This document shows positions 22,144-42,892 of a stretch of 64,000 nt of DNA, one piece after another. Source of the DNA: Pelagerythrobacter aerophilus (GTDB lineage Bacteria > Pseudomonadota > Alphaproteobacteria > Sphingomonadales > Sphingomonadaceae); contig NZ_QXFK01000019.1 in assembly GCF_003581645.1 (NCBI RefSeq), positions 248,001 through 312,000 of the forward strand, in the 5' to 3' direction. The notes beneath the pieces are model-generated. The model did not search any database, had not been told where the DNA came from, and worked only from the letters and a program-made list of their open reading frames with translations. The translations under genes and the position numbers were made by a program. The first letter of the stretch is position 1; each line of letters starts with the position of its first letter.

Positions 22144-22192
22144 AAATGGTGCCGCTTACGTGACTCGAACACGTGACCCCATCATTACGAAT
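22144..22192. repeat. Left attachment site (49-bp direct repeat, tRNA-Thr 3' part)
   Basis: Identical over 49 bases to 42814-42862, covering the tRNA-Thr CCA end, acceptor 3' strand, T arm, variable loop and the anticodon loop. The match ends just past the anticodon, consistent with crossover in the anticodon stem-loop. The left copy lacks the 5' half of the tRNA and cannot make a tRNA. Confidence 0.95.
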
Positions 22193-22253: not shown

Positions 22254-22268
22254 GTTCCACTCGCGTTC
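22254..22268 (+). promoter_or_regulatory. LexA-type box upstream of the integrase
   Basis: GTTCCACTCGCGTTC fits the alphaproteobacterial LexA consensus GTTC-N7-GTTC exactly. It lies 74 bp upstream of the integrase start, inside the element, in the only place an integrase promoter could be. Chance matches are expected about twice in 64 kb on both strands, so position is the main support. Confidence 0.55.
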
Positions 22269-22314
22269 TTGCCGCTATGTTCCCATAAGGTTCTTTGGGT
22301 TTCCCCTGAACCGA

Positions 22315-22342: not shown

Positions 22343-23632
22343 GTGCCATCGATGCGGATCACAAAGCGGGAAGTGGATGCCGCCGGAGCGCGAGCCTCAG
22401 GCGACATCTACTACTGGGACGACAAACTGAGTGGCTTCGGCCTCCGCGTCACCCCGCGAGGGGTCAAGAGCTACGTTGTGCAGTATCGCCTTAAGGGACG
22501 CCCAGCGCGGCGAATGACGCTTGGCATCCACGGCTCGCCCTGGACCCCCGACAAGGCGCGAGCACGTGCCGAGCAGATCCTGATCGAGGTGAAGAGCGGG
22601 ATCGATCCCGTCGCCATGGCAAAGAAGAAGGCGCAGGATGCGCGCACTTTAGGGTTCGAGGCGTACGCCAAGCGCTTTTCCGACGAGTGCCTGAAGGTGG
22701 AGTGGGAGGGATCGTGGGAAGACGCAGAGCGCTGCCTCACTTTGCACGTGGTCCCTCGGCTGAAATCTCGCGCTCTTCCCGAGATCGATGCGGCTGATAT
22801 CAGGGCGGTGATTGATCCGATCCGTTCGCAGAGGGCGTTGGCCAGGAAGGTCTGGGCAGTGCTCAACCGCCTATTCACATGGGCCATCGAACAGCACGAC
22901 CTCCCCGCCAACAGCAATCCTATGGCGGGAATGAAGCCCCCACCTAAGCCCGCAGATCGCAAGCGCGTTCTTTCGCCTGACGAAATCATCGCCGCCTGGC
23001 GTGCCAGCTTTGAAGTTGGCGAGCCGTGGGGTCCGTTTATTCGCCTGCTCTTCGCGACCCTTCAGCGACGTAACGAGGTTGCAGGGTTGCCGTGGAAGGA
23101 ACTCGATCAGAATAGGCGACTTTGGCACATTCACGGCGAGCGCGCGAAAAACGGTGAGGATCACCTAGTCCCATTGAATGAACTTGCCCTGCGAGAGCTT
23201 TCAGAAAGAGGCTGGAAGCGGCGAGGACTCGTCCTCACCACAACCGGGAAAACGCCAGTCAGTGGTTTCAGTCGTATGAAAAGGCGGCTGGATAAGCTGA
23301 TGCTCGCGAAACTGCAGGAGCTTGCCGACAGTCGCGCTGAGGCGCTGGGCGAAGAGGCTCAGTCGGTTCAACTCGAGCCATGGCGGTTGCACGATATCCG
23401 GCGGACAGGGACCACCGCGATGCAAAGTCTGGGCATCCCAGTCGAGCATTCCGATGCCTGCCTGAACCACAAGTCCGGCGAGGCCGGTACGGGTGCTGCA
23501 AAGGTCTATCACCTCTGGAAGTACGAACCGGAGAAGCGCACCGCCTTCGAAAAGTGGGGCGCACACCTGGAGCAACTGGTCAGAGGCGCAGAGGAGTCAA
23601 ACGTGGTCCCGCTTGCCAATCGGCGAGCGTGA
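22343..23632 (+). CDS. int: Tyrosine site-specific integrase (DUF4102 / P4-like)
   Basis: 429 residues. The N-terminal arm-binding domain (DUF4102 type) has DDKLSGFGLRVTPRGVKSYV. The catalytic domain has Arg242 in ATLQRRNEVAGLPW, LHDIRRTGTTAMQSLG (His-x-x-Arg), LNHKSG, and the likely nucleophile Tyr389 in AKVYHLWKYEP. It integrates the element into tRNA-Thr, whose fragment lies 150 bp upstream. GTG at 22343 is chosen because GAGGG is six bases before it; an ATG three codons later is possible. A LexA-type box and an arm-type repeat lie in its leader. Confidence 0.94.
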   Translation: MPSMRITKREVDAAGARASGDIYYWDDKLSGFGLRVTPRGVKSYVVQYRLKGRPARRMTLGIHGSPWTPDKARARAEQILIEVKSGIDPVAMAKKKAQDARTLGFEAYAKRFSDECLKVEWEGSWEDAERCLTLHVVPRLKSRALPEIDAADIRAVIDPIRSQRALARKVWAVLNRLFTWAIEQHDLPANSNPMAGMKPPPKPADRKRVLSPDEIIAAWRASFEVGEPWGPFIRLLFATLQRRNEVAGLPWKELDQNRRLWHIHGERAKNGEDHLVPLNELALRELSERGWKRRGLVLTTTGKTPVSGFSRMKRRLDKLMLAKLQELADSRAEALGEEAQSVQLEPWRLHDIRRTGTTAMQSLGIPVEHSDACLNHKSGEAGTGAAKVYHLWKYEPEKRTAFEKWGAHLEQLVRGAEESNVVPLANRRA

Positions 23633-25994: not shown

Positions 25995-26233
25995 TCCTCG
26001 CTATTCGAACCAATGCGGGGCGCTACCTCCTGCGGCGCGGCGAGCACTGCCTCGATCCATACTATCAACGAGAGGCGGCTACGCTGCTGTCGGTCGTGCC
26101 GTTCTGGAGCGATGGTGAGCGGTCGTTGCTCCGATACATCGCGGACGGGGGCCACCTTACCCGGCGCGAGGCGAAGGGGTTCTGGGACTGCAACGCATAC
26201 TTCGCGAGCTTGCGGCGTGGAGGTGCGGCATGA
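25991..26233 (+). CDS. Hypothetical element protein
   Basis: 80 residues, ATG overlapping the previous stop and stop overlapping the primase start. It begins MILAIRTNAGRYLLRRGEHC and contains WSDGERSLLRYIADGGHLTR, a probable helical pair. The tight overlaps on both sides support that it is translated. Function unknown. Confidence 0.6.
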   Translation: MILAIRTNAGRYLLRRGEHCLDPYYQREAATLLSVVPFWSDGERSLLRYIADGGHLTRREAKGFWDCNAYFASLRRGGAA

Positions 26234-27132
26234 TCGACCTCGAAGCAATCAAGCGATCCTACGCCCTGCCCGAAGTTGTGGGGGCTGTCGTAAAGCTCCA
26301 ACGCGCCGGGCAGGAGTGGAAGGCTTGCTGTCCGTTGCATCAGGATCGCAGTCCCTCGTTCACGATCTTTGACGATGGCAAGCGCTTTCAGTGCTTCGGC
26401 TGCGGTGCCTCGGGCGATGTCTTGGACTTCATCCAGCGGCTCCACGGTGTCGGCCTGCGCGAGGCAGCGGACATGCTGACAGGAGGATATGCGCCGACCA
26501 TCGAGGTCGAGCCCCTGCCAGCAAACGATCAAGGCGACCGGCTGGATGAGGCGCGGGCCATCTGGCGAAATGCAGAACCGCCCCAGGGCACCCCGGTTGA
26601 AACATATCTGCGATGGCGCGGTCTGGACTTAGCTATTCCGCCGACAATTCGGTTCGCACAGCTCCGGTACGGCAGGAAGGGGCGCGACTATCCATGTTTG
26701 GTTGCCGCCGTCGCTGGAGCTGACAACAGGCTGTCGGGGATCCAGCGCACCTATCTGGCGGATGATGGCCGAGGCAAGGCTGCGGTCGCAAAACCGAAGC
26801 TGTCGCTTGGTCGCGTTTCGGGCGGCGCAATAAGGCTGGCGCCCGCTGCTGCCAACCTGATCGTTTGCGAGGGTCTGGAGGACGGGCTGACGCTTCAGCA
26901 AGAGCTCGGAGCGGCAGTCTGGGTCGCCGCCGGCGCCTCGATGCTGCCGGCGATGCGACTGCCCGAATTGGTTCGGTCGATCGCCATCGGCGGAGATGCA
27001 GACGAAGCGGGGCGCGAGGCAGCCGACAAAGCGGCCAAGGCCTTCACCAGACGCGGCATCGAGACGCGGGTGTTCTTCCCGGTCGGCGCCAAGGATTTCA
27101 ATTCTGAACTTATGGAAGGGGCGCGCGCATGA
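26230..27132 (+). CDS. DnaG-type primase with CHC2 zinc finger and Toprim domain
   Basis: 300 residues. The N-terminal CHC2 zinc finger has CCPLHQDRSPSFTI (Cys and His near residues 33-37) and RFQCFGCGASGDVLDFIQ (two Cys near 56-59). The C-terminal Toprim domain has LIVCEGLEDGLTLQ (acidic residue) and AIGGDADEAGREAA (DxD-like). It should prime replication of the element after excision. It overlaps the DUF3987 gene by four bases. It is short compared with host DnaG (about 600), as usual for mobile-element primases. Confidence 0.9.
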   Translation: MIDLEAIKRSYALPEVVGAVVKLQRAGQEWKACCPLHQDRSPSFTIFDDGKRFQCFGCGASGDVLDFIQRLHGVGLREAADMLTGGYAPTIEVEPLPANDQGDRLDEARAIWRNAEPPQGTPVETYLRWRGLDLAIPPTIRFAQLRYGRKGRDYPCLVAAVAGADNRLSGIQRTYLADDGRGKAAVAKPKLSLGRVSGGAIRLAPAAANLIVCEGLEDGLTLQQELGAAVWVAAGASMLPAMRLPELVRSIAIGGDADEAGREAADKAAKAFTRRGIETRVFFPVGAKDFNSELMEGARA

Positions 27133-28667
27133 CTGCCGCCACAATCAAGGAGGCGTTCGCGAGCGCCGAAATCATCAACGCATGGCCGGAGCCGAGAGAG
27201 CTTCCCGGTGGCCTTCATCCAGTGGAGAGCTTTAGTTGCGAGTTGCTGCCGGTCACGCTTCGCCCGTGGGTGGAGGACATTGCCGAGCGGATGCAGACCC
27301 CGCCGGAGTACGTGGCAATCCCCGCCATGGTGGCGGCGGCAACCGTGGTCGGACGCAAGGTCGCGATTCGGCCCAAGCAGCATGACGACTGGAGAGAGGT
27401 ACCAAACCTGTGGGGCTGCATTATCGGCCGCCCCGGCGTGCTGAAGTCGCCCGCAATCGGGCAAGCGCTCAAGCCCCTGGGGCGGCTGGCGGCCCTTGCA
27501 GACGAGCAGTTCCAGTTTGAGAAGGCTGAATTCGACGCTGCGAACATGGAGCGTGAACTGCGGCGAGACGCGGCAAAGGCTGCGATGAAGAAGGCGCTCA
27601 GCGCCGATCCTCGGGCAGACGTGTCGCATTTGCGGGCAGAGGAAGAAGATCGCCCTTCCCTGCGCAGGTTCAGCACGAACGATTCGAGCTATCAGATGCT
27701 CGGAGAGCTGCTGCGGCACAACACGAACGGACTGCTCGTCTCGAAAGACGAACTGATGGGATTGCTGAAGCCTCTTGATCGCGAAGAGAACAGCGAGGCG
27801 CGGGCCTTCTATCTCCAGGGCTGGAACGGCGATGGCAGCTACACTTTCGACCGCATCGGCCGCGGAGAGAATTTGCATGTCCCCGCCCTCACCCTTTCGG
27901 TTTTAGGCTCTACCCAGCCCGCCAAGATCCAGGGCTACGTCGATAGGATTGTAGGCGGCGATGGGGACGACGGTCTTCTTCAGCGCTTCTCAATGATGGT
28001 CTGGCCGGACACACCGCCCTCGTGGGAATACATCGACCGACAGCCGCGCTCCGAATATCGGCAGGCTGCGTTCGATGTCTTCGATCACCTGAACGGGCTG
28101 ACTGCAGAGAGCGTCGATGCGGAGACGGACCAATACGATCAACGCTTCCCTTACCTGCGCTTCGACGCTGAGGCAGGCGAGCGTTTCAAGGTCTGGCTAA
28201 CCGAACTCATGGAGCGGCTCCGCTCCGACGAGTTGCATCCTGCGATCGAAAGCCACTTTTCCAAGTATCGCTCGCTCATCCCTTCCCTGGCGCTCCTCCA
28301 TCACCTGATGAGCGGAAAGCGGGGGCCGGTCGGGCTTTTGTCGCTTTTGTCGGCCATAGCGTGGGGCGATTTTCTGGAAGGCCATGCATTCAGGGTCTAC
28401 CAATCGGCCGTCAACGAGCCGGCGCAGGCAGCGAAGGCAATCCTACGCCACTTGAAGGCGGGCGATCTGCCGGACGGCTTCAATCGCCGTGAGATCGAAC
28501 GACGCGGCTGGGCAGGCCTGCAATCGAACAGCGAGCGCATACAGGCGGGTCTCTCGATACTGATCGACTACGGCTGGATTCGCGAGGTCGCCGGGGATCG
28601 TCCAGGCGAGCGTGGCGGCCGACCCTCGCTACCCACCTACATCATCAATCCCGCAGTGAGGCCCTGA
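27129..28667 (+). CDS. DUF3987 family ATPase/helicase-like replication protein
   Basis: 512 residues. A P-loop lies at GRPGVLKSPAIGQ (Lys about 106), preceded by YVAIPAMVAAATVVGRKVAI, the common DUF3987 lead-in. A later region is NTNGLLVSKDELMGLLKPLD (probable Walker-B-like), then TLSVLGSTQPAKIQGYVDRI. Such proteins pair with CHC2 primases in phages, satellites and islands and are thought to act in replication initiation. The C-terminal part has a winged-helix-like end (REVAGDRPGERGGRPSLPTY). Confidence 0.88.
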   Translation: MTAATIKEAFASAEIINAWPEPRELPGGLHPVESFSCELLPVTLRPWVEDIAERMQTPPEYVAIPAMVAAATVVGRKVAIRPKQHDDWREVPNLWGCIIGRPGVLKSPAIGQALKPLGRLAALADEQFQFEKAEFDAANMERELRRDAAKAAMKKALSADPRADVSHLRAEEEDRPSLRRFSTNDSSYQMLGELLRHNTNGLLVSKDELMGLLKPLDREENSEARAFYLQGWNGDGSYTFDRIGRGENLHVPALTLSVLGSTQPAKIQGYVDRIVGGDGDDGLLQRFSMMVWPDTPPSWEYIDRQPRSEYRQAAFDVFDHLNGLTAESVDAETDQYDQRFPYLRFDAEAGERFKVWLTELMERLRSDELHPAIESHFSKYRSLIPSLALLHHLMSGKRGPVGLLSLLSAIAWGDFLEGHAFRVYQSAVNEPAQAAKAILRHLKAGDLPDGFNRREIERRGWAGLQSNSERIQAGLSILIDYGWIREVAGDRPGERGGRPSLPTYIINPAVRP

Positions 28668-33105: not shown

Positions 33106-33366
33106 TCAGGACTTCCGGAGTAAGTCCGGCAGCTTAGCGATGTTGCGGACGATCATCAGCGCTTCGCGCCGAGTCAGCCGCCTCTCATAATCGGGCCCGA
33201 TGGGAAGATCGCGATCTACGAAATACGTGTGCGCGAATCTTTTCCCGTTTGCGTCCTCGATCCAGTAGCATTCCTCGCTGCTACGCACCGTCCACGGCAG
33301 CGGGAAGCGCCGTGGAGGCGCACCTGTCTTTCGCTGCAATCGCTCTTGCTTCGGGGGCGGCCACAT
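33106..33366 (-). CDS. Small conserved-type hypothetical protein
   Basis: 86 residues. The core (PLPWTVRSSEECYWIEDANG, FAHTYFVDRD, then LTRREALMIVRNIAKLPDLL) resembles a short protein found widely in alphaproteobacteria that ends in an IAKLPELL-type helix. Function unknown. It is convergent to the preceding plus-strand genes. Confidence 0.65.
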   Translation of the reverse strand: MWPPPKQERLQRKTGAPPRRFPLPWTVRSSEECYWIEDANGKRFAHTYFVDRDLPIGPDYERRLTRREALMIVRNIAKLPDLLRKS

Positions 33367-33409: not shown

Positions 33410-33424
33410 GTTCTATATTCGTTC
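33410..33424 (+). promoter_or_regulatory. LexA-type box upstream of the SRAP gene
   Basis: GTTCTATATTCGTTC fits GTTC-N7-GTTC exactly and lies 18 bases before the SRAP start codon, overlapping any possible -10 region. SRAP proteins are named for co-occurrence with SOS genes, so the site makes biological sense. Confidence 0.75.
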
Positions 33425-33442
33425 CGATAGGGGAGGCCCGCC

Positions 33443-34042
33443 ATCTGCAACTTGTACCGCATGACGAAGGCGAACGACGAGATCGCCCGCCTTTTCCGTG
33501 TCGAGAACACAATCGGCAACGCGGCCGAGGAGGTCTACCCCGGCTATCCCGGCCTGGTCGTGGCCGAAGGCGCGCTGCGGACGATGGTCTGGGGCTTCCC
33601 GCTGGCGCAGAAGAGCGCGAGGACCGGACTGCCGCTCAAGCCCCGCCCGGTGAACAACGCGCGCACTGACAATCTCGACAGCTTCATGTGGCGCTACAGC
33701 TTTCAGGAACGGCGCTGCCTCATCCCGCTCACGGCGTGGGCGGAAGCCGAGGGGCCCAAGGGCGCCATGACCCGCACCTGGCTAAGCCTGCCCGATCAGC
33801 CGATCTTCGCCTGCGCGGGGATCTGGCGCGGCAGCGACGAGTGGGGCGACTGCTATTCGATGGTCATGACCGATGCGGGCGGCGCTGCGGCTGAAGTGCA
33901 CGACCGCATGCCGGTGATCCTGCGTCCGGATGATTACGAGCGGTGGCAGTCAGCGCCGGCAGAGGACGCAAGGGCGCTCTGTGTACCCTATGCCGGTGCG
34001 GTTGCGATCGAGCGAACAGTGGACTCTTGGAGGCGCGCGTAG
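33443..34042 (+). CDS. SRAP-family protein (YedK/HMCES type), probable ATC start codon
   Basis: 199 residues if read from ATC at 33443, giving MCNLYRMTKANDEI. SRAP proteins need Cys2, which forms a thiazolidine link to abasic sites in single-stranded DNA. Other active-site candidates are present: Asn72 and Arg74 (PVNNARTDN), Glu101 (LTAWAEAEG) and His153 (AEVHDRMPVIL). GGGGAGG lies six bases before the ATC, ideal for initiation there. No ATG or GTG supplies Cys2: the first conventional start is TTG at 33452, which would remove it. Either ATC is used, or the gene is inactivated by ATG to ATC. A LexA-type box sits just upstream. Confidence 0.85.
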   Translation: MCNLYRMTKANDEIARLFRVENTIGNAAEEVYPGYPGLVVAEGALRTMVWGFPLAQKSARTGLPLKPRPVNNARTDNLDSFMWRYSFQERRCLIPLTAWAEAEGPKGAMTRTWLSLPDQPIFACAGIWRGSDEWGDCYSMVMTDAGGAAAEVHDRMPVILRPDDYERWQSAPAEDARALCVPYAGAVAIERTVDSWRRA

Positions 34043-35907: not shown

Positions 35908-36635
35908 TCGTCCGCCGCACCCTCGACGCGACCTTTCTCAACGAGGTTGCCAATGACCCTGCTGTGCGTCCCGCGCTTGGCGGCGAAGGCGAGCTAGATC
36001 TCTCTGAGGCCGTCGCGGACCCAGCCAACCTTGCGCTGGTATGCTCAAGCGGCGGGTTTGTTCTCACCCCATTATCGTCGGGCGCATACGAAGTGCACTC
36101 GCTGTTCAAGCCTGGACAGGGGACAGCGCCCGTTCGCGCGATGCGAGCTGCTCAGGAATGGGTGTTCACGCGGACGGACTGCGTGTCGATCTGGTCGAAG
36201 GTTCCCAAGTCGAACCGGGCCGCGAAGGGACTCGCTTTGGCGGGTGGGCTGCGCCCGATGTTCGAGGGCGATTTGTTGGGCTTCGGCCCCACTGAGATGG
36301 TCGAACTGCCGATCATGCGCTGGGCGATGCAGTCTGAAAGTCTGGAGAAGCACGGCGAGCGCTTCCACGCGCTACTGGAGAAGGCAAAGCGCAAGGCGGG
36401 ATCGAGCCTGCCGACGCACGCGCACGACCCGGCGCACGAGCGGGCCGTAGGTGCCGCGCTGCTGATGTTTGAACACGGCCAGCCGCAGAAGGGCGCGGCT
36501 TTCTACAACACGTGGGCTGGAGTGGGCGGATACTCCCCCCTGAGCCTTTTGAGCATGTCCCCGGTCGTCGTGGATGCGGGAGATGCGATTGTCGGCCTGG
36601 GGGTCGCGGGAGTGGAGGTGTTACTATGCCGCTAG
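35904..36635 (+). CDS. GNAT-like phage protein upstream of the ejection genes
   Basis: 243 residues. The N-terminal two-thirds read as an acetyltransferase-like fold: GGFVLTPLSSGAYEVHSLFK, PGQGTAPVRAMRAAQEWVFT, VSIWSKVPKSNRAAKGLALA, then GGLRPMFEGDLLGFG. Proteins of this kind precede internal-virion or ejection genes in many podoviruses. The C-terminal part (HAHDPAHERAVGAALLMFEH, then KGAAFYNTWAGVGGYSPLSL) is the usual tail of that phage family. It overlaps the next gene by ten bases. Confidence 0.7.
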   Translation: MIVRRTLDATFLNEVANDPAVRPALGGEGELDLSEAVADPANLALVCSSGGFVLTPLSSGAYEVHSLFKPGQGTAPVRAMRAAQEWVFTRTDCVSIWSKVPKSNRAAKGLALAGGLRPMFEGDLLGFGPTEMVELPIMRWAMQSESLEKHGERFHALLEKAKRKAGSSLPTHAHDPAHERAVGAALLMFEHGQPQKGAAFYNTWAGVGGYSPLSLLSMSPVVVDAGDAIVGLGVAGVEVLLCR

Positions 36636-37513
36636 GAGCAGTTGTCGGCGCGGGCGTCATCGGCGCCGGCGCCAGCGTCATTGGCGCGAACAAGAACAGC
36701 AAGGCGATCAACAAGGCGACCGACGCCCAGACAGCGGCCAACGACAAGGCAATTGCTGCTCAGGAGAAGGCGCGCTCTGAGAATTTGGCGCTCCAGCGGC
36801 CCATCTACGATGCCGGCTTGCCTGCGATGGGCGCACGGAATGCGCTTCTGGGGCTTGGTGGGACTGCCCCGCAGGCCGCAAACACGAACACCACGAACGC
36901 GCTTGCGCAGTATCAGGGGGCCAATCCCGACACGTCGGGCACACGAACGATGCGCGGGCCTACGGGTTGGAACGCGCTCGACAACGCGCTTGAGCGACAG
37001 GGCTACTTTCGCCCGCAAACCCCGGGGCCGATAAGCGGCTATGGCGGCGGCACATGGAACGCCGATGGCACACAGGCCACGCCCGCCGGGCAGACCCCGC
37101 AGGAGGCGGCAGAGGACGCGTTTGACGTGTTCCGCAACTCGACCGGGTATCAGTTCCGCATCGACCAAGGACAGGATGCGCTCAACAGCGGCTTCGCGGG
37201 CTCGGGTCTCTTGCGTTCAGGGGCGGCATTGAAGGCGCTTGACGACTACCGCCAGGGCATGGCGACCGCCGAGTTCGGCAATTACTGGAACATGCTCGGT
37301 GAGCAACAGAACCTCACGGCGGGCGCTGCCAACGCGATGTCGGGGGTCAACACCAACTACGCGAACAACGCAGGCAACCTGGCGATGTCTCAGGGCAACG
37401 CGCTTGCGAACGCGGCTGTGGCGCAGGCGAACAACTCGAACGCCATGTGGGGCAACATTGCCAACAGCGTCGGCAGCGGCGTGGGGATTCTGGCCGGCAT
37501 GGGCAAGCTCTGA
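36626..37513 (+). CDS. Podovirus-like DNA transfer / ejection protein
   Basis: 295 residues. Starts with a glycine/alanine-rich hydrophobic segment (GAVVGAGVIGAGASVIGANK) and a helical stretch. The diagnostic part is about residues 170-240: FRNSTGYQFRIDQGQDALNS, GFAGSGLLRSGAALKALDDY, GMATAEFGNYWNMLGEQQNL. This pattern is shared by podoviral virion proteins annotated as DNA transfer proteins. It should be part of the apparatus that carries DNA into the host. No complete virion gene set surrounds it. Confidence 0.8.
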   Translation: MPLGAVVGAGVIGAGASVIGANKNSKAINKATDAQTAANDKAIAAQEKARSENLALQRPIYDAGLPAMGARNALLGLGGTAPQAANTNTTNALAQYQGANPDTSGTRTMRGPTGWNALDNALERQGYFRPQTPGPISGYGGGTWNADGTQATPAGQTPQEAAEDAFDVFRNSTGYQFRIDQGQDALNSGFAGSGLLRSGAALKALDDYRQGMATAEFGNYWNMLGEQQNLTAGAANAMSGVNTNYANNAGNLAMSQGNALANAAVAQANNSNAMWGNIANSVGSGVGILAGMGKL

Positions 37514-39570: not shown

Positions 39571-40740
39571 CTACCGCGATGCTCCCTGCCCGTCACGATG
39601 CGCAAGCATGGCCGCAAGCCAGGCGTCGTCTTGCGATGCGATGCGGGAAGCCGCCGCAACCCGCTCCGATACTACGTGCGTCTCTTCCATGGCGAGCGAC
39701 CGTCGTTCAGCAGGCAGCGCCTTCACCTTTGCGCGGAATCTCTCTCCTTCTTCGAGGATGCCGCGTAGAGCCAGCGCCCGCTTGACGGCGCGCCTCTTCA
39801 GCGCCTCGGCTTCTTTTGCTTTCGCGATGACCGCTGCACGCTCCGTTGCGAGCCGATCTAGTTGTTCGCGCAGCTTGCCCTGCTCCGCCCGAAGCGCAGC
39901 CCGCTCGCGCTCGACAGCAGCCCGCTCGGCGTCCAGCCTCTCCCGGTCTGACTTGATTCGCTCCAAGCCGTAGGCGAACCGCTGACGCTCAGCCGCAAGC
40001 GCGCCGCGCTCACTGTCCAGTTGGATGGCGAGCTCAGAAACCCGCTGCCGGTCCTTCGACAACGCGGTCCCTTCCGCCAGCGCAGCCTGCCTGGCTTCTT
40101 CCAGCCGAACCTCATGCTCACGATTGCTAATGTTGCGGGCACCCGAGCGCTCCCTCCCTCGCTCAAGTCCCATCTCCTCGAAGAACGATGCGAACCGTGT
40201 TTGCTCCCGGCTCATATCGCCCCGTCCGCCCACAACGCGCTTGGCGGAAAGGCGGTAGACGGGCGCCTTGTCCTTCCTGCGGTTATCGGGCTCATGAATC
40301 AGCGGAACGACAACTAGGTGCAGATGCGGAGTGCGCTCATCTTCGTGCAGCGCCATCGAGACCACCTGGCCCGGAATCTTGAAGCGATCGCTGAACGCAC
40401 GGAGCGTCTGCACAATGAACTTCTGGAGCCTGCGCTCGTACGCCGGCTGGTCGAGTCCCTCGAACACCTCGCGAGAGGTCGAGACGACGAACTCCAGCGC
40501 GAGGACTCCGCCGGGCCGGTGCTTCACGCCGTACCGATCGAGCAACTTCCGGATCTCTCCGCTCACATCTGCCGTGCCAACCATCAATGTAGGCGGTGGC
40601 GCATCCTTCTCCAGATGCCGGCATTCCATCTCGCGAGTGTTGTGGCGGCGGACATGGTAGACATGGCCCCACGTCTTGATGCGCTTGAACCGCATCGTCA
40701 CGAACCGCCGCTCTCCGCTCGACCCCGTCGCTGCCGACAT
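39571..40740 (-). CDS. MOBV-type relaxase (Pre/Mob family)
   Basis: 389 residues. Motif I region: RIKTWGHVYHVRRHNTREME with His33, Asn34 and Arg36. Motif III: SMALHEDERTPHLHLVVVPL with the His132...Pro138-His139-x-His141 cluster that binds the metal. From about residue 205 the protein is a long charged coiled coil, as in Pre/Mob proteins. It should nick at an oriT and pilot a strand during transfer driven by another conjugative system; no type IV secretion genes are present here. An ATG at residue 16 is an alternative start. Confidence 0.85.
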   Translation of the reverse strand: MSAATGSSGERRFVTMRFKRIKTWGHVYHVRRHNTREMECRHLEKDAPPPTLMVGTADVSGEIRKLLDRYGVKHRPGGVLALEFVVSTSREVFEGLDQPAYERRLQKFIVQTLRAFSDRFKIPGQVVSMALHEDERTPHLHLVVVPLIHEPDNRRKDKAPVYRLSAKRVVGGRGDMSREQTRFASFFEEMGLERGRERSGARNISNREHEVRLEEARQAALAEGTALSKDRQRVSELAIQLDSERGALAAERQRFAYGLERIKSDRERLDAERAAVERERAALRAEQGKLREQLDRLATERAAVIAKAKEAEALKRRAVKRALALRGILEEGERFRAKVKALPAERRSLAMEETHVVSERVAAASRIASQDDAWLAAMLAHRDGQGASR

Positions 40741-42813: not shown

Positions 42814-42862
42814 AAATGGTGCCGCTTACGTGACTCGAACACGTGACCCCATCATTACGAAT
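42814..42862. repeat. Right attachment site (49-bp direct repeat)
   Basis: Second copy of the 49-bp repeat, forming the 3' part of the intact tRNA-Thr. Integration has therefore preserved the tRNA gene on the right side. Confidence 0.95.
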
Positions 42863-42892
42863 GATGTGCTCTACCAACTGAGCTAAAGCGGC
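42817..42892 (-). tRNA. tRNA-Thr (anticodon CGT)
   Basis: 76 bases including an encoded CCA. Acceptor stem GCCGCTT/AAGCGGC, D arm GCTCAGTTGGTAGAGC, anticodon stem CATCA/TGATG with loop TTCGTAA (anticodon CGT, reads ACG), and T arm with TTCGAGT. It is the integration target of the element. Confidence 0.97.

Follow-up and report, generated by a model that had tools for sequence, protein, structure and literature searches.

Recurrent ATC and ATT starts on mobile elements suggest a translational brake rather than a broken gene at an SRAP locus of Pelagerythrobacter aerophilus

infC is the textbook example of a gene repressed by IF3. ATH start codons are repressed by this factor, TTG not being among the repressed ones described in PMC5472188, and the same source describes sigR of Streptomyces, which starts with GTC under IF3 repression and has a long Shine-Dalgarno (SD) sequence. 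According to PMC5472188, experimental characterisation exists for very few non-standard starts; in E. coli, AUC is among the seven strongest start codons, as quoted in PMC12350097. A second system of relevance here is the SRAP protein YedK, in which the amine and the thiol of Cys2 make the cross-link to abasic sites and Cys2 is required; YedK active-site mutants are reported to lack Met1 as well (PMC9436759). An SRAP gene has its start fixed by this catalytic second residue, and the sequence alone therefore shows where the true start is, which is rare. A third is the alphaproteobacterial LexA regulon, with GTTC-N7-GTTC as the published motif of Caulobacter (PMC12700426).

The gene described here lies in a window (the whole stretch of DNA that was analysed) of 64,000 nucleotides from P. 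aerophilus. A preliminary description had recognized an SRAP gene of the YedK/HMCES type in the frame ATC-TGC-AAC-TTG-TAC-CGC-ATG, with ATC preserving Cys2, GGGGAGG six bases upstream, Asn72, Arg74, Glu101 and His153 intact, and a first conventional start, TTG at 33452, that would drop Cys2. All these readings were borne out, and the start region comprises the following features.

33443..34042, plus strand: SRAP gene, 199 codons and a TAG stop (34040-34042), with ATC start (PF02586, active-site residues, dN/dS 0.093 against a second genome, G005)
33443..33445, plus strand: proposed start codon ATC (in-frame TAG upstream, ATG, GTG and TTG absent between; same in G005)
33430..33436, plus strand: SD sequence GGGGAGG, 6 nt from ATC (sequence; anti-SD duplex -11.2 kcal/mol)
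33428..33430, plus strand: in-frame TAG that shuts the frame upstream (translation)
33410..33424, plus strand: LexA-type SOS box GTTC-N7-GTTC (motif; also upstream of lexA and recA of the same genome)
33106..33366, minus strand: divergent ORF of 86 aa without family match, which shares the intergenic region and the box with the SRAP gene (98.8% identical in G005)

The 33443-34042 protein matches the SRAP family PF02586 over residues 2-185 with 85.2 bits, the curated cut-off being 27.1; a match to NCBIfam was not found in the profile comparison. Cys2, Asn72, Arg74, Glu101 and His153 (Met counted as 1) are invariant in an alignment of the window protein with eight other SRAPs. Provided that ATC is the start, the protein has the Cys directly after the start and the active-site Asn, Glu and His that define SRAP proteins, and judged from its residues it would perform abasic-site cross-linking chemistry.

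Upstream of the gene the order is GTTCTATATTCGTTC (33410-33424), CGA, TAG, GGGGAGG, CCCGCC and ATC, the first G of GGGGAGG being the G of the TAG. This stop sits 15 nt 5' of ATC and none of the intervening codons (GGG, AGG, CCC, GCC) is a start, so that ATC is the sole codon able to start a Cys2-bearing protein. Going by the letters, the gene has the marks of the IF3-repressed type, that is, a start other than ATG, GTG or TTG with no alternative upstream, and a strong SD sequence. RNA structure at the SRAP start did not go beyond chance in two stretches of the window (z 0.25 and 1.84). Past ATC, the first conventional in-frame starts are TTG 33452 (codon 4) and then ATG 33461 (codon 7), and that either could also serve weighs against ATC as the only start. 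Proteins started at codon 4 or 7 would be incapable of the Cys2 cross-link chemistry; if translation began only there, the product would bind DNA without cross-linking it, and YedK without the Cys2 thiol is indeed reported to have lyase activity in place of cross-linking (PMC9436759). We consider such a downstream start very unlikely, since the SD sequence is spaced for ATC, the Cys and Asn that would be lost are invariant in the nine SRAPs, and codons 2-6 differ only silently between the window gene and its homologue on contig 81 of genome G006 (L009). In two further ATC/ATT genes, L244 and L310, the next in-frame ATG, GTG or TTG is codon 44 and 43, respectively.

In G005 the ATC, the SD sequence and the upstream box are all the same, and the ATC base is therefore not the error of one assembly. 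The two SRAP genes differ with dS 0.49 and dN 0.046. Between 33320 and 33492 there is 1 difference in 173 nt, in a surrounding alignment that is about 12% divergent; this near-identity round the start could reflect either constraint or recent exchange. The preliminary description had offered two options, a genuine rare start that keeps expression low or a point mutation that has disabled an otherwise intact gene. ATC is non-standard, and two other ATH-headed SRAP copies are truly broken, either truncated after about 28 residues (L012/L081) or frame-shifted (L066/L142). However, the window frame is fully open, its active site is complete and the same ATC stands in G005 at dS 0.49 and dN/dS 0.093, so that a gene silenced by a point mutation is scarcely credible. 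Of the two options, the rare start is well supported, by the ATC and the dN/dS of G005 and by the recurrence of ATC and ATT documented below, and the dead gene is not supported; that the start keeps expression low is something we infer.

The ATC gene on contig 81 of G006 is 74% identical to that of the window and has the same layout in a different upstream sequence: a box at -31, AAAGGAG, CTCCGCC and ATC. Its frame is open for 408 nt upstream and holds a TTG at -33, and for these reasons its ATC is called ambiguous. dN/dS is 0.09-0.19 in pairs of ATC/ATT genes with secure starts and 0.21 between the window gene and this ambiguous one. The host genome itself has four SRAP genes, which start with ATC (window), ATG, GTG (89% identical to the window gene) and GTG. 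Start codons vary among close relatives of the window gene, with GTG in the 89% paralogue and ATG in others, and ATC is therefore not needed for function. The GTG-start paralogue at L128 9491-10466 shares bases with the stop of the ORF that precedes it (GTGTGTAA), and the head of that ORF carries a similar box, GTTCCATATTCGTTC; the two are possibly a LexA-headed, translationally coupled pair.

The window SRAP gene sits in a 20.7-kb integrative element in tRNA-Thr, whose other features are as follows.

22144..22192, no strand: left attachment repeat, matching the end of tRNA-Thr exactly over 49 nt (repeat comparison)
42814..42862, no strand: right attachment repeat at the tRNA-Thr end (tRNA-Thr at 42817-42892, minus strand)
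22343..23632, plus strand: tyrosine integrase (phrog_1 179 bits; PF00589)
26230..27132, plus strand: CHC2/Toprim primase (profile matches)
27129..28667, plus strand: DUF3987 helicase-like protein (profile matches)

The repeat pair at 22144 and 42814 extends over 58 nt with 95% identity, the first 49 nt being exact, and the integrase adjoins one of these two direct repeats of the tRNA end, as is characteristic of integrative elements in tRNA genes. The element also encodes a relative of phage DNA-ejection proteins (36512-37513, phrog_598) and a Mob_Pre/MobV-like protein (39571-40740) that scores above the Pfam cut-off and below the NCBIfam one; defence genes were not found among the 10 ORFs scanned with PADLOC. 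Two GTTC-N7-GTTC boxes, at 22254-22268 and 22279-22293, occur in the stretch that separates the left attachment repeat from the integrase gene (22343) and suggest that the integrase, too, may be under SOS control. The codon at 33443-33445 can be compared in homologous elements, as the preliminary description had proposed. A related element in G005 has its SRAP gene in the same place and keeps ATC, another in G001 has an SRAP gene that starts with ATG, and a third, on contig 35 of G006, has a truncated SRAP copy headed by ATT.

The LexA-type box lies 33 nt upstream of ATC in the window, at -33 in G005 and at -31 on contig 81 of G006, and conforms to the LexA-regulon motif. The lexA box of the host genome reads GTTCCGCATTCGTTC, letter for letter that before the G006 ATC gene. 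GTTC-N7-GTTC occurs 105 times in the host genome versus 58 times for the reversed pattern, and a box was found within 150 nt of 14 of 178 SRAP starts, versus a mean of 0.67 and a maximum of 3 in 200 shuffles. Only 3 of the 14 boxed SRAP genes have ATC; the box thus tracks SRAP genes and not the unusual start. Judging by the motif, SOS control of these SRAP genes is likely; a sigma-70-like promoter was not found by consensus scan at the SRAP gene.

How often does ATC or ATT precede Cys2? Within 397 genomes of the host family, the pattern ATHTGYAAYYTNTAYMR occurs at 35 places in 28 genomes. Examination of 31 of these (30 fetched and G006 contig 81) showed SRAP starts at 9 (2 broken and 7 intact, the latter from 7 genomes) and no SRAP at the other 22; the same pattern with ATG, GTG or TTG gives matches, which are not confirmed SRAP counts, in at least 193 of the 397 genomes. 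Relatives of the window protein were fetched from 33 genome contigs; 31 were readable and 5 have ATC or ATT, two of which are the G005 and G006 genes again and two of which are mutually identical over the stretch shown. The 11 closest viral-contig relatives start with ATG (10) or GTG (1) and none with ATC or ATT. Among 80 relatives of L070, 79 could be aligned from Cys and have ATG (68), ATC (6) or GTG (5), four of the six ATC genes belonging to the fusion group treated below. Across the class, 30 SRAP genes were fetched, the best-scoring of a 142-genome sample, and the 28 readable ones start with ATG (26) or GTG (2). Finally, among 19 hand-picked plasmid and phage records, ATC or ATT heads three, of which one is frame-shifted; ATG is found in all five from phages.

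Taken together these are 244 distinct SRAP genes with ATG (206), GTG (20), ATC (13) or ATT (5) and none with TTG, ATA or CTG; these numbers do not amount to a frequency, since ATH searches contributed part of the rows and the motif C-[NGKSD]-x-[YF] was required after the start codon. That every ATH before the Cys is a start had to be rejected. In L179, L183 and L184 and their near-copies the upstream frame is coding and without a stop (L179 around 1605-2606), and SRAP continues in frame from a conserved protein of roughly 115-130 residues that is encoded upstream. Identities at the three positions of the SRAP frame upstream of ATC are 0.85/0.86/0.58 for L179 and L183 and 0.90/0.96/0.73 for L179 and L184. 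ATC may be a plain Ile codon in these three, and they were therefore dropped from the counts. L179 has an AGGAGG within the coding sequence just 5' of ATC-TGC, and the group could be either a self-cleaving fusion or a case of internal initiation at ATC; L470 resembles it in layout only. Autocleavage has been proposed for SRAP (PMC3765255), and release from a longer in-frame protein by self-cleavage before Cys2, with ATC as an ordinary Ile codon, is a likely reading of the L179 group and a possible one in L009, L089, L373 and L470. For the window we give it next to no credence, since it would require read-through of the TAG at 33428; likewise it is impossible in G005, L070, L244, L310 and L372, whose frames are closed by a stop 12-45 nt 5' of the ATC or ATT, no ATG, GTG or TTG intervening.

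With the fusions removed, 241 distinct SRAP genes remain; 15 of them have ATC or ATT before Cys2, and none has TTG, ATA or CTG there. Twelve of the 15 are classed as secure, i.e. without a credible other start, and they fall into five tree-separated groups; L009, L089 and L373 were retained as ambiguous. Four groups have a stop upstream and no ATG, GTG or TTG before the ATC or ATT, namely the window gene with G005 (-15), L070 (-45), L244 with L310 (-15) and L372 (-12). The fifth consists of L033 (stop at -12, one GTG inside the SD sequence) and L028/L138 (TTG at -30 without a GGAG-like site before it). Three secure rows, L242, L247 and L309, carry an upstream ATG at a distance of 12 nt and are counted only via their close relatives L244 and L310. 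On the tree, the 12 secure rows need at least five changes and all 15 need seven, and the well-supported branches force the same numbers; this is a quick tree with SH-aLRT support only, the rows are related and the changes may include losses. A class-wide search for the ATH pattern gave no SRAP-length open frame at any of 30 fetched places. Class-II glutamine amidotransferases also need Cys2. As a control they gave 54 ATH places in 51 of 298 genomes, and 0 of 20 fetched places passed a simple motif rule for an amidotransferase start. Annotation of such genes is uneven and exposes a gap: an SRAP gene headed by ATC on a plasmid of Croceicoccus marinus (L135 2441-3094) is annotated from an ATG 57 nt upstream, and a Sphingopyxis copy (L138) is annotated at ATT.

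The SD sequences of the ATC/ATT genes are strong. Their duplex energies have a median of -10.55 kcal/mol (14 ATC/ATT rows), compared with -4.8 for 217 ATG/GTG rows (p 3e-8, uncorrected for relatedness of the rows). Each group was also set against its closest ATG/GTG neighbour in the first tree. The ATC/ATT member had the stronger SD sequence in 5 of 7 such comparisons; L089 was level with its neighbour (-6.6 vs -6.5), and L242 fell behind its nearest ATG relative (-9.3 vs -11.5). With the L179 group left out, the ATC/ATT member is stronger in 4 of 6. This bears on the view that ATC arose from ATG or GTG as a neutral or mildly deleterious change and still starts weakly, with no IF3 regulation selected. 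Low output would be tolerated, as the genome has other SRAP copies, four genes in all and one of them 89% identical with GTG, and start codons do vary among close relatives. We nevertheless regard it as unlikely, because ATC or ATT recurs in five tree-separated groups, and never TTG, ATA or CTG, because these genes have strong SD sites and because they are under purifying selection within their groups (dN/dS 0.09-0.19 in secure pairs).

infC was fetched from 30 of 39 host-family genomes searched (L401, L435-L463), and all ATG, GTG, TTG, CTG and ATH codons that precede the conserved GPR motif were listed; 25 of the 30 loci could be read. In all 25 the codon preceded by an SD-like motif is ATA or ATC, and the conventional codons of the frame have no SD-like motif; L458 has an ATT beside the SD-preceded codon and L445 too shows further ATH codons there. 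A second rule gave 25 loci with AGGAG or GGAG before ATA (20) or ATC (5), four being unread and L450 dropped (wrong frame); this rule presupposes an Ile codon and is unable to show a conventional start. The host-genome infC reads AACAGGAGACCGCCCC-ATA. The host family thus appears to use ATH starts with strong SD sites at infC. ATA is common there and absent from SRAP starts; the absence of TTG from SRAP starts, in small numbers, hints at IF3 rather than mere weakness.

On balance we think it probable that ATC 33443 is the true start of an intact, element-borne SRAP gene that is probably controlled by LexA and held low by a start against which IF3 discriminates. LexA would act through the box at 33410-33424, so that SRAP mRNA is made mainly after DNA damage; should the TATATT inside the box be the -10 element, which is guesswork based on the letters, the leader would be about 17 nt long and begin just before the SD sequence. 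fMet-tRNA would then start at AUC, a codon IF3 discriminates against, with the strong SD sequence compensating in part, and Cys2, exposed by the removal of Met1, would act as the nucleophile in cross-linking to abasic sites of single-stranded DNA. The need for Cys2 right after the start codon prevents initiation from shifting to a weaker site; altering the start codon itself would be a simple way to keep translation low and retain Cys2, and output would depend on IF3. The use of ATC as a start in the cell, a low output, sensitivity to IF3 and control by LexA are predictions from the sequence.

It is tempting to speculate, and here we are more doubtful than confident, that SRAP genes on mobile elements have repeatedly evolved AUC or AUU starts discriminated by IF3 that form a two-key lock with LexA: SRAP would be made in quantity when damage lifts LexA and the ratio of IF3 to ribosomes or the stringency of initiation falls. 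If true, this would be, to our knowledge, the first SOS-type gene class gated by start-codon fidelity, convergent under the Cys2 constraint. In any case, recurrence on other mobile elements suggests that the odd ATC start is a translational brake and not the sign of a broken gene. SRAP genes offer a natural test of whether AUC and AUU starts can be an evolved translational brake, and of whether the DNA-damage response takes input from the level of IF3 or the fidelity of initiation.

How does the locus compare with the known systems? With the alphaproteobacterial LexA regulon (GTTCN7GTTC; PMC12700426) it shares a box near the start, as at lexA and recA, and a search of open-licence PMC papers yielded no SOS gene of this regulon that is reported to have a non-standard start. 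With the YedK/HMCES proteins (PF02586) it shares the family HMM match and the active-site Cys2, Asn, Glu and His; it differs in its ATC start, has 198 residues after Met and begins with CNLYR, versus CG[RL][YF] in the 28 readable chromosomal copies. With infC, which starts with ATT, ATC or ATA, it has in common an ATH start and a strong SD sequence, but infC is autoregulated, whereas the window SRAP gene would be a target and not a regulator. Like sigR of Streptomyces it is a stress-response gene with a non-standard start, a very strong SD sequence and, to judge from L135, a start that is prone to mis-annotation (PMC5472188). sigR, however, is an actinobacterial sigma factor gene with GTC, whereas the SRAP gene has ATC, resides on a mobile element and is bound by the Cys2 constraint.
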